A stretch of 64,000 nt of DNA from Buttiauxella gaviniae (GTDB taxonomy: Bacteria; Pseudomonadota; Gammaproteobacteria; Enterobacterales; Enterobacteriaceae): NCBI RefSeq assembly GCF_040786275.1, contig NZ_JBFMVT010000002.1:3906001-3970000 (forward strand), written 5' to 3'. Numbering within the stretch: position 1 is the stretch's first letter; each line of letters opens with the position of its first letter. This document shows positions 29,857 through 57,723 of this stretch, piece by piece. The translations under genes and the position numbers were made by a program. A model generated the notes under the pieces. That model saw nothing but the letters and a program-made list of their open reading frames with translations. It was not told the DNA's origin and did no database searches.

Positions 29857-30066
29857 ATGGCAAAGATTAAAGGTCAAGTTAAGTGGTTCAACGAGTCTAA
29901 AGGTTTTGGTTTCATTACTCCTGCTGACGGCAGCAAAGACGTGTTCGTACACTTCTCTGCAATCCAGGGTAATGGCTTCAAAACTCTGGCTGAAGGCCAG
30001 AACGTTGAGTTCGAAATCCAGGACGGCCAGAAAGGCCCAGCTGCAGTTAACGTTACTGCTATCTAA
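29857..30066 (+). CDS. cspC: Cold-shock-domain protein CspC
   Basis: CspC is a constitutive cold-shock-family RNA chaperone and transcription antiterminator that also affects RpoS-dependent mRNAs. All 69 residues appear the same as in E. coli. RNP1 is KGFGFI (about 16-21) and RNP2 is VFVHF (about 29-33). Ribosome site TAAGGA precedes the ATG at 29857. It forms an operon with yobF and is followed by a terminator. Confidence 0.98.
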
Positions 30067-55263: not shown

Positions 55264-55923
55264 ATGTATCAGCATCATAACTGGCAGGGTGCGCTGCTGG
55301 ATTTTCCGGTCAGCAAAGTAGTGTGTGTAGGCAGTAACTACGCAAAACATATCAAAGAGATGGGCAGTGCAACGCCTGATGAACCGGTGGTGTTTATTAA
55401 ACCGGAAAGTGCGCTGTGCGATATTCGCCAGCCGCTGGTGCTGCCGCAGGAGTTCGGCTCTGTTCATCATGAAGTGGAGCTGGCGATTCTTATTGGCTCG
55501 ACGTTAAGGCAGGCAACGCAAGAGCATGTCACGAAAGCCATTGCGGGCTATGGCGTGGCGCTTGATCTTACGCTGCGTGATTTACAGAGCAAACTGAAAA
55601 AAGCTGGTCAGCCGTGGGAAAAGGCTAAAGGGTTTGATAATTCCTGCCCGATCTCTGGTTTTATTCCTGCCTCTGAATTTAACGGCGATGCGCAGAACAC
55701 GCCCATTGCTTTAAAAATCAACGGTGAAATACGCCAGCAGGGAAATACCGCCGATATGATCCACAAGATCGTACCGCTGATTGCCTACATGAGCCGCTTC
55801 TTCACTCTACGCGCAGGCGATGTGATTCTCACAGGAACACCAGACGGTGTCGGGCCGCTAAACAGCGGTGATGAACTGGAAGTTAGCTTTGCCGACCGCA
55901 GTTTTACCACTCGCGTTCTATAA
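55264..55923 (+). CDS. ycgM: FAH-family oxaloacetate tautomerase YcgM
   Basis: This is a 219-residue fumarylacetoacetate-hydrolase-fold protein, the E. coli length. Members of this group (FAHD1-like) have been shown to act on oxaloacetate enol/keto forms. The metal ligands are in HHEVELAILIG (Glu, Glu) and VALDLTLRDLQ (Asp). KGFDNSCPISGF and VILTGTPDGVGPL are family signatures. It lies upstream of ycgN on the same strand. Confidence 0.94.
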   Translation: MYQHHNWQGALLDFPVSKVVCVGSNYAKHIKEMGSATPDEPVVFIKPESALCDIRQPLVLPQEFGSVHHEVELAILIGSTLRQATQEHVTKAIAGYGVALDLTLRDLQSKLKKAGQPWEKAKGFDNSCPISGFIPASEFNGDAQNTPIALKINGEIRQQGNTADMIHKIVPLIAYMSRFFTLRAGDVILTGTPDGVGPLNSGDELEVSFADRSFTTRVL

Positions 55924-56013
55924 TCAATTTGCCGCCTCAGGGCGGCAAAACTTGCATCTCAGGCCCAGACTGTTTATAAGGTGCGCTTGTTTTTTTATTA
56001 CCGGACAAACATC

Positions 56014-56460
56014 ATGACTACAGCGCCGTTCTGGCAGAGCAAAACGCTTGACGAAATGAGTGACGCGGAGTGGGAATCCCTTTGCGATGGCTGCGGCCAG
56101 TGCTGTCTGCATAAATTGATGGATGAAGACACGGATGAAATTTATTTCACCAACGTCGCCTGTAAGCAATTAAACATCAAAACCTGTCAGTGCAAAAATT
56201 ACGCGCGCCGTTTTGAATTTGAACCCGATTGCATCAAATTGACCCGCGATAATTTGCCAACGTTTGAATGGCTGCCGCACTCCTGCGCCTATCGTCTGTT
56301 AGCCGAAGGCAAAGATTTACCGACATGGCACCCGTTGTTGACCGGTTCTAAAGCGGCGATGCACGGCGAACGCATTTCTGTGCGCCATATTGCGGTTAAA
56401 GAGTCGGAAGTGCGCGATTGGCAAGCACATATTTTAAACAAGCCTGAGTGGGCAGATTAA
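56014..56460 (+). CDS. ycgN: Cys-rich YkgJ/YcgN-type (UPF0260) protein
   Basis: This is a 148-residue protein of unknown function close to E. coli YcgN (153). It is rich in conserved cysteines: [42 protein letters not shown] and HSCAYRLL, suggesting a bound metal or Fe-S cluster. The ATG at 56014 ([15 protein letters not shown]) has a weak ribosome site; the open frame to 55981 is not conserved. It follows ycgM by 90 bases. Confidence 0.94.
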
Positions 56461-56474
56461 TCCACCAGAATTAG

Positions 56475-56530
56475 AAAAGAACACCAAAATAAATCGTACA
56501 AAGTGAAATCTTTATGATACGGTGTTCTTT
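56475..56530 (+). repeat. Inverted repeat ahead of the 56556 microprotein ORF
   Basis: AAAGAACACC (56476-56485) and GGTGTTCTTT (56521-56530) form a perfect 10-bp inverted repeat around 35 AT-rich bases. It may be a weak terminator for ycgN, or a 5'-UTR structure of the next ORF. A possible -10, TATGAT, lies at 56513-56518. Confidence 0.5.
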
Positions 56531-56555
56531 CAATAACAAGTAAAAGAAGGTTTTT

Positions 56556-56732
56556 ATCCAGTACTTAACATTTAAGTGTCCGTCTTGTGGCGGTTCACAG
56601 TATCGCACCTCCCCCTACGATGTCCGAGAAACAAATCCCCACGGCGCTGTTTGTATCTTCTGTAAATCAGGGATGCACACTATCCATCGTCCGATGAGTG
56701 CGATTCATCAATATAACGTAGCTGCTCGCTAA
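56556..56732 (+). CDS. YmcF/YnfQ-like zinc-ribbon microprotein with ATC start
   Basis: This 58-residue ORF lacks ATG, GTG or TTG. The frame opens at a TAA and the only sensible start is ATC at 56556, 5 bases after an AGAAGG ribosome site. The product (M)QYLTFKCPSCGGSQYRTSPY has CPSC and, 22 residues later, CIFC (in NPHGAVCIFCKSGM), a four-cysteine zinc ribbon. It closely resembles the E. coli cold-shock microproteins YmcF and YnfQ, as I recall them (pattern FRCPCCHGSQYRTS...NPLGAKCIFCKS), which also start at non-AUG codons. It lies between ycgN and a lipoprotein gene. Function is unknown. Confidence 0.72.
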   Translation: MQYLTFKCPSCGGSQYRTSPYDVRETNPHGAVCIFCKSGMHTIHRPMSAIHQYNVAAR

Positions 56733-56803
56733 GAGCGTATTCCGCTGGTTTTGCTTTCCCCATTCCTGCACTGTTAACATTCAGCCTCCATAACGGAGGA
56801 ATA

Positions 56804-57040
56804 ATGAAAAAAATAACATTACTGTTCGGGGCGCTCATTCTCAGCGGCTGTTCATCGCCGCAACCTGTTGCACCTAAACCGCCTCAGGTCATCGGCATGC
56901 CGAACCCGGCGTCAGTTTACTGCAAAGATAAAGGCGGTGAATTGAGAACGGTGAAAACCGATCTGGGAGAGCGGGGTGACTGCCTCTTGCCGGGCGGTGA
57001 ACGCATTGACCAGTGGACGCTTTACCGCCGCGACCACTAA
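56804..57040 (+). CDS. DUF333 lipoprotein (YoaF-like)
   Basis: This is a 78-residue putative lipoprotein. The signal peptide has lipobox ILSGC with Cys16, followed by Ser-Ser and a Pro-rich stretch. The DUF333 (Hlj1-like) domain reads MPNPASVYCKDKGGELRTV and DCLLPGGERIDQWTLYRRDH, similar to E. coli YoaF and related proteins. Two cysteines in the domain may pair. The ribosome site is GGAGG. A terminator follows. Confidence 0.85.
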   Translation: MKKITLLFGALILSGCSSPQPVAPKPPQVIGMPNPASVYCKDKGGELRTVKTDLGERGDCLLPGGERIDQWTLYRRDH

Positions 57041-57044
57041 TAAT

Positions 57045-57070
57045 AAAAAACCCGCCATCGGCGGGTTTTT
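57045..57070. terminator. Bidirectional terminator between the lipoprotein gene and dsbB
   Basis: AAAACCCGCC / GGCGGGTTTTT with loop ATC and A/T runs on both sides, between convergent genes. Confidence 0.9.
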
Positions 57071-57088
57071 GCTTTATAAATCTTGAGA

Positions 57089-57619
57089 TTAGCGCCCGAA
57101 GAGATCGCGACGTTTTGGTTTGAAAGGCTGGGCAATCAACACCAGCAGAGCAATCAACAAGAATACAGCGAAAATCCCCACTAACCACTGTACCATCTCC
57201 AGGGACAGGAATTCCCATTGACGAACGGAACAGTCTCCGGTGGCGACAAACACTGACGGCAGCCATTTATCGAGCGGCAGCCAGCCTGGGAAACGTGCGG
57301 CAAAATCACAGGTCACAAACGGGGAAGGGTGAAGCTGAATCATGGTGTGTTCCCATGCCAACTGAAGACCTTTCCCGGCGCTGTAAATCCACAGTGCAAT
57401 GCCTGCATAACGCAAAGGTGTTTTTGGCGCAATCGCCCCCACAATCCCTGCACCCATAACGCCAAACAGTGCGCAACGCTCATAAATACACATCACACAT
57501 GGTTTGAGCATCATGACGTGCTGGAACCACAATGCCACCATTTCCAGCGCAAAAGCCGTGAGTGCCAGCAGAATCCAGGCACCGCGCCCGCGGGAGCATT
57601 GGTTTAAATATCGCAACAT
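57089..57619 (-). CDS. dsbB: Disulfide bond formation protein DsbB
   Basis: DsbB re-oxidises periplasmic DsbA and passes electrons to quinones. It has 176 residues, as in E. coli, with four membrane helices. Both periplasmic cysteine pairs are present: Cys41-Val-Met-Cys44 and Cys104/Cys130 ([14 protein letters not shown] and [12 protein letters not shown]). It is transcribed from the nhaB side and is convergent with the lipoprotein gene. Confidence 0.97.
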
Positions 57620-57723
57620 AATCAGTATCCCTGCAACATACGTTTAGTCGGCAGTGTAAACGAATTCATTTTCAGCGCCAGTAGGCACATCAAAATAACA
57701 CGCTAATCGAATGTTTATCAGAC

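Follow-up and report, generated by a model that had tools for sequence, protein, structure and literature searches.

A putative AUC-initiated YmcF-like microprotein at the ycgN-dsbB locus of Buttiauxella gaviniae, outside the csp operons

A 58-codon frame in Buttiauxella gaviniae very probably encodes a functional, autonomously transcribed YmcF-like microprotein of the zinc-ribbon type, translated from an AUC codon. The frame lies in a 64,000-nucleotide stretch of DNA (the window, Table 1), and this reading is drawn from sequence comparison. Both the YmcF-like family and its use of non-AUG starts were known before, E. coli ymcF being annotated with an ATT start in RefSeq; the non-AUG usage, which the initial annotation had put forward as an extension of the family, is therefore not new in itself. 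What appears to be new is a lineage located outside csp operons that keeps ATC or ATT at one position and shares an extended -10-like motif. In the literature searched on YmcF and YnfQ, in which subscription journals are thinly represented and articles were partly accessible, no account of a csp-less lineage with an AUC start was found.

Table 1. Positions (window numbering) of the microprotein frame, its putative expression signals and its neighbors.
Feature	Position	Strand	Basis
ycgN (CxxCxxCC domain), upstream neighbor	56014..56460	+	PF03692
AAAATAAAT, conserved A-rich block just 5' of the -35-like hexamer	56486..56494	+	alignment of relatives
CGTACA, weak -35-like hexamer, 17 bases before TACGGT	56495..56500	+	comparison with relatives
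TGATACGGT, extended -10-like element (TGnTAnnnT)	56515..56523	+	near-fixed distance in relatives
In-frame TAA bounding the open frame	56541..56543	+	sequence
AGAAGG, Shine-Dalgarno-like, followed by five T and ATC	56545..56550	+	sequence; AGTAGG or GAGAG at the matching place in relatives
ATC, inferred start codon	56556..56558	+	conservation, upstream in-frame stops
YmcF-like microprotein frame, 58 codons/residues, ATC start, TAA stop	56556..56732	+	sequence, PF23641, conservation, pN/pS
First Cys pair, C-P-S-C (Cys8, Cys11)	56577..56588	+	both Cys invariant, 31 aligned relatives
Second Cys pair, C-I-F-C (Cys33, Cys36)	56652..56663	+	both Cys invariant, 31 aligned relatives
TAA stop of the YmcF-like frame	56730-56732	+	
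DUF333 lipoprotein-type gene, 78 residues, downstream neighbor	56804..57040	+	PF03891
dsbB-type gene, convergent neighbor	57089..57619	-	

From stop to stop, the frame spans 62 codons with no ATG, GTG or TTG. Therefore, an ORF listing based on common starts misses the 58-codon frame, as the initial annotation had predicted for ORF callers limited to these three codons; the coordinates, length and sequence that it gave for this frame without a standard start were also correct. The 58-residue product matched the PF23641 (YmcF-like) profile with 68.1 bits (cut-off 27, E 8e-19), which bears out its initial description as a YmcF/YnfQ-like CPSC...CIFC protein. Each of the 12 Buttiauxella genomes contained a single match to the window protein, of full or nearly full length and with 88-100% identity. 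The uncorrected pN/pS among 16 distinct full-length sequences was 0.18 over the 58 codons (0.085 for codons 2-41 and 0.35 for codons 42-58), and the same DNA read in two shifted frames gave 2.18 and 1.82. When Cedecea was added (20 distinct sequences), the value was 0.15 over 40 codons. This substitution pattern shows that the frame is under purifying selection. Both comparisons suggested by the initial annotation, of frame conservation and of synonymous versus nonsynonymous change, thus turned out in favor of the frame. Altogether, the PF23641 match, the matches in all Buttiauxella genomes and the difference in pN/pS between the true and shifted frames place the frame far from chance.

The alternative that the frame is a decaying remnant, its conservation reflecting promoter and spacer DNA, is extremely improbable. 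A PF23641 match was detected in only 95 of 295 genomes sampled from the bacterial family, representing 45 of 154 genera, so the protein is dispensable in many of them, but the low pN/pS, above all in the core, the lack of internal stops in all 16 distinct sequences and the four invariant cysteines argue against decay. As a separate observation, in genomes G082, G200, G275, G093 and G280 (L171-type; L082/L093/L153 families) some PF23641 matches cross one stop codon (TAA/TAG), and in those listed the core frame is open to the second Cys pair.

The PF23641 match covered profile positions 3-45 of 62. The C-terminal part of the profile was not matched, and several other members above the cut-off likewise match only in the core. 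Among the 14 control genomes, only E. coli gave a PF23641 match. With the window protein as the query, 92 of the 295 genomes matched at E <= 1e-10; Cedecea and Dryocola also had one match per genome, and the named relatives include Enterobacter sp. R1(2018), Dryocola boscaweniae, Cedecea colo, C. sulfonylureivorans, C. neteri and C. davisae. The gene had initially been called a paralogue. However, only one of the four PF23641 matches found at E <= 10 in the window genome exceeded the cut-off, so a paralogue within the same genome was rejected; the gene is the sole family member in this genome and comes from a csp-less lineage. A phage origin of the window copy was rejected as well: in viral contigs, three stretches matched the pattern used to search for relatives of this copy and none was confirmed, and the 9 phage records holding relatives (of 50,697) held only weaker ones. 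E. coli YmcF, used as a query, retrieved 69 viral loci. PHROGs gave weak matches only, and window positions 56400-56800 had no DNA match to E. coli in 20,395 records.

The closest points of comparison are two E. coli proteins of the same family with the same CxxC...CxFC core. YmcF (b4723) is 67% identical to the window product over the shared core (tblastn), and both genes have a non-AUG start near a Shine-Dalgarno-like site, ATT for ymcF and ATC in the window. The ymcF gene starts 11 nt after the cspG stop in E. coli K-12, whereas the window gene adjoins no csp gene, has its own promoter-like element and encodes a different C-terminal tail. YnfQ (b4724, Qin prophage; 57% identity, tblastn) is encoded next to cspI inside a prophage, in contrast to the chromosomal ycgN-dsbB setting of the window gene; the initial annotation had named cspB as the neighbor of ynfQ, but in E. 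coli K-12 it is cspI. The ECs_2282 family (NF047912), in which we presume YnfU to be placed, also consists of small putative zinc-binding proteins of CxxC...CxxC type. It gave the best NCBIfam match, at 23.7 bits against a cut-off of 37, and all NCBIfam matches were sub-threshold.

The neighbors of the window gene, which we take to be ycgN and dsbB, are also found in relatives: in loci reaching far enough, the gene is preceded by ycgN and followed by the DUF333 lipoprotein gene and dsbB. The sole CspG-like stretch detected by tblastn in the window is at 29863-30063, consistent with the initial placement of the gene beside ycgN, apart from any csp gene. A tree built from 101 distinct core sequences (39 columns, with many unresolved forks) placed the ycgN-locus rows in one group with a support of 89/78. 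This group joined 11 csp-less rows of a single clade, here called Erwiniaceae-type although names are available for only some of them, in a 26-row group (87/86) that also holds the long branch L065.

The start codon was ATC in 23 of 23 aligned rows; the pattern locating these rows itself begins with ATC, and every row tried passed. In the same rows, codon 34, which encodes the other core isoleucine, was ATC in 21 and ATT in 2. Over the ycgN/dsbB-locus and Erwiniaceae-type lineage, the aligned start was ATC in 27 and ATT in 5 of 32 distinct sequences, a count that leaves out L065, which has ATG there and would make it 32 of 33. The proposal of an ATC start is thus upheld. As initially noted, AGAAGG precedes the ATC by five bases, all of them T. 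Conservation of this arrangement is partial: the ATC is constant in the 23 rows but the exact AGAAGG is not, being common to the window, Enterobacter sp. R1(2018), Dryocola boscaweniae, Cedecea colo and a MAG named uncultured Buttiauxella, with AGTAGG in the other 11 Buttiauxella genomes and GAGAG in the Cedecea neteri/davisae group. In 11 of the 12 Buttiauxella genomes, the window genome being the exception, an in-frame TAG stands in place of AAG about three codons before the ATC. Only GTT, TTT, ATC or later codons are left in these genomes, and the start must therefore be non-AUG. Translation thus probably begins at the AUC with formyl-Met, aided by the Shine-Dalgarno-like AGAAGG.

Initiation elsewhere, either at the in-frame ATG at 56514 combined with stop readthrough or frameshifting, or at another upstream AUG, seems very unlikely. 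Seven of the 11 Erwiniaceae-type members do carry an ATG in frame, four codons upstream of the ATC/ATT, but the other four lack it and all 11 keep ATC/ATT. In the window, the ATG at 56514 runs for only nine codons before a TAA (mini-frame 56514-56543), and TAA plus TAG intervene in 11 of 12 Buttiauxella. This ATG is replaced by GTG or CTG in the rows of relatives, and it overlaps the -10-like element, hence lying upstream of the predicted transcript. The mini-frame is probably an accident of the TG motif. The seven Erwiniaceae-type members in question (L053, L064, L094, L096, L097, L109 and L110) read ATG AAG GTN NNN ATC/ATT; their ATG overlaps the Shine-Dalgarno-like stretch, and AUG initiation is possible there.

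Start codons were also compared across 118 family members, which had been freed of duplicates on the basis of a 155-base stretch and are not independent (the set excludes L155 and L161, in which the motif was absent, and loci from L162 onward). Fifty-six members have an IHFR-type N-terminus; their aligned codon was ATT in 29, ATG in 12, ATC in 5, ATA in 2 and another codon in 8. Such exchange between ATT and ATG at one column is the expected behavior of a start codon. An in-frame canonical codon within 13 codons of the first Cys was missing in 41 of the 63 csp-linked members (ATG in 15, GTG/TTG only in 7), in all 21 ycgN/dsbB-locus members, and in 9 of the 34 members outside both contexts (ATG in 22, GTG/TTG only in 3). 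The ATG in 22 of these 34 indicates that a non-AUG start is unnecessary for the function of the family. When a Shine-Dalgarno-like match was also required, 66 of the 118 members had no canonical codon but ATT, ATC or ATA at a fitting distance, 47 had some canonical codon, and 5 had neither. Annotation limited to ATG, GTG and TTG thus loses or misplaces the YmcF-like family.

These distributions bear on the reason for which the lineage has kept its start. The protein might be translated from AUC, with the non-AUG start being a relic inherited from a csp-linked ancestor and tolerated as the Shine-Dalgarno-like site compensates and little protein is needed; the start would then be neither regulatory nor linked to cold. 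We give this explanation slightly less than an even chance. The csp-linked relatives mostly lack a nearby canonical codon already and carry ATT/ATC, so the start could have been inherited, and the lineage is a single tree clade. Against this, the ATG found at the same aligned codon elsewhere in the family indicates that a change to AUG is possible, and yet all 32 sequences of the lineage retain ATC/ATT after leaving the csp operons. Whatever its cause, AUC initiation in this lineage is of use for study. Natural AUC starts with conservation support are few. The csp-less lineage supplies a clean case: 11 of 12 Buttiauxella genomes leave room for no alternative start, and the codon persists from genus to genus, whereas other branches of the family show ATG in the matching column.

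Autonomous transcription, the other component of the preferred reading, is suggested by conserved elements upstream of the frame. The TGnTAnnnT motif occurred 60-64 bases before the first Cys codon in 21 of 21 distinct ycgN/dsbB-locus sequences, in 9 of 11 Erwiniaceae-type members and in none of 24 other members, one of which (L124) lies 199 nt downstream of a csp stop; the motif was defined only once the alignment had been inspected, and mononucleotide shuffles gave null rates of 8.6% and 4.0% per sequence. The -35-like hexamer is CGTACA or AGTACA in Buttiauxella and neighbors, CCTTTA or CCTTCT in the Cedecea neteri group, and CAGACA, CAGACG or GAGACA at the corresponding place in the nine motif-bearing Erwiniaceae-type members. 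Moreover, the A-rich block, the -10-like element and the leader are retained in three Buttiauxella rows (B. izardii and two B. agrestis) in which ycgN lies about 2 kb away from the gene. A consensus promoter scan did not report the proposed promoter at 56495-56523, whose -35 is poor; its one site, at 56594-56621, lies inside the frame (shuffled mean 0.7). A structured leader or known RNA was rejected: the fold z-score was -0.40, the centroid fold left the Shine-Dalgarno-like site and the ATC unpaired, and Rfam had no match over 55800-57700. Altogether, the gene is probably driven by its own extended -10 promoter at 56495-56523, with a predicted leader of about 26 nt. A site scan found no terminator-like site between the microprotein gene and the DUF333 gene, and the transcript possibly runs on into the latter. 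A microprotein located apart from csp operons means that YmcF-type function and its odd start can be studied without the csp leader.

How such a start would affect synthesis can be proposed by analogy. E. coli YmcF and YnfQ are reportedly cold-induced with an ATT start (D'Lima et al. 2017), and promoters of the extended -10 type open readily in the cold. The AUC might hold synthesis low at 37 degrees, through rejection of non-AUG starts by IF3, and might be more permissive in the cold, like the AUU start of infC. Such IF3-sensitive, cold-permissive initiation is a guess; if it applies, this copy outside the csp operons could do without the thermosensor leader of csp genes. The genes encoding IF3 (infC) and Streptomyces SigR (sigR) resemble the window gene in having a conserved non-AUG start behind a Shine-Dalgarno site; their proteins are unrelated to the window product, and IF3 control has been shown for them whereas it is only proposed here. 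In the accessible part of PMC5472188, IF3 is described as repressing non-AUG starts, with infC starting at ATT in E. coli and ATC in Streptomyces, and with an IF3-repressed GTC start of sigR conserved in 32 of 34 species, the remaining two having GTT. The accessible part of PMC10158994 adds that IF3 excludes weak third-base pairs. According to that of PMC6511841, IF1 and IF3 increase relative to ribosomes after a cold shift, and infC auto-repression is lower in the cold. Taken alone, the rise of IF3 would lead to stronger, not weaker, rejection of AUC, which counts against release in the cold. In its full form, the proposal is a two-part cold switch: on leaving the csp operons, the lineage would have lost the long csp leader and kept an extended -10 promoter and an AUC/AUU start, repressed by IF3 at 37 degrees and freed from this repression in the cold. 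The thermal control would then be the start codon itself, selected over an assumed tens of millions of years. We consider this scenario rather unlikely.

AlphaFold2 (31 sequences) predicted four short strands with a mean pLDDT of 79.3 and a pTM of 0.59; confidence was high across residues 11-40, with a pLDDT of about 90, and low toward the C-terminus. A Foldseek search of the PDB with this model returned 128 matches at E <= 10 and none at E <= 0.001; many of the best 50 of the 128, among them chains of TFIIE alpha zinc finger, Nop10, eIF2 gamma and MCM, are ones that we take to be zinc-ribbon bearing. A sequence profile search of the PDB gave no significant match (best E 0.23). In the accessible part of PMC13348028, YnfQ modeled with AlphaFold-3 matches the rubredoxin topology. 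The zinc-ribbon-type chains among the Foldseek matches and the rubredoxin-like model of YnfQ suggest that the microprotein may bind zinc, and it might act on nucleic acid or the translation machinery.

Finally, some loci of the lineage appear rearranged near ycgN. In L087 (B. agrestis), the one examined among the three rows with the 2-kb spacing, the insert between ycgN and the putative microprotein promoter holds an ORF of 518 residues (1300-2856) that contains GGEEL and presumably encodes a GGDEF protein of diguanylate-cyclase type. In L076, L080 and L088, no YcgN match was found in the 3 kb upstream (of 3001), yet the final ycgN codons (NKPEWAD-stop) adjoin the gene, and the upstream ORFs of L080 are presumably of acyltransferase-like and SRAP-like types. 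From the sequence, this arrangement suggests an insertion close to the 3' end of ycgN.
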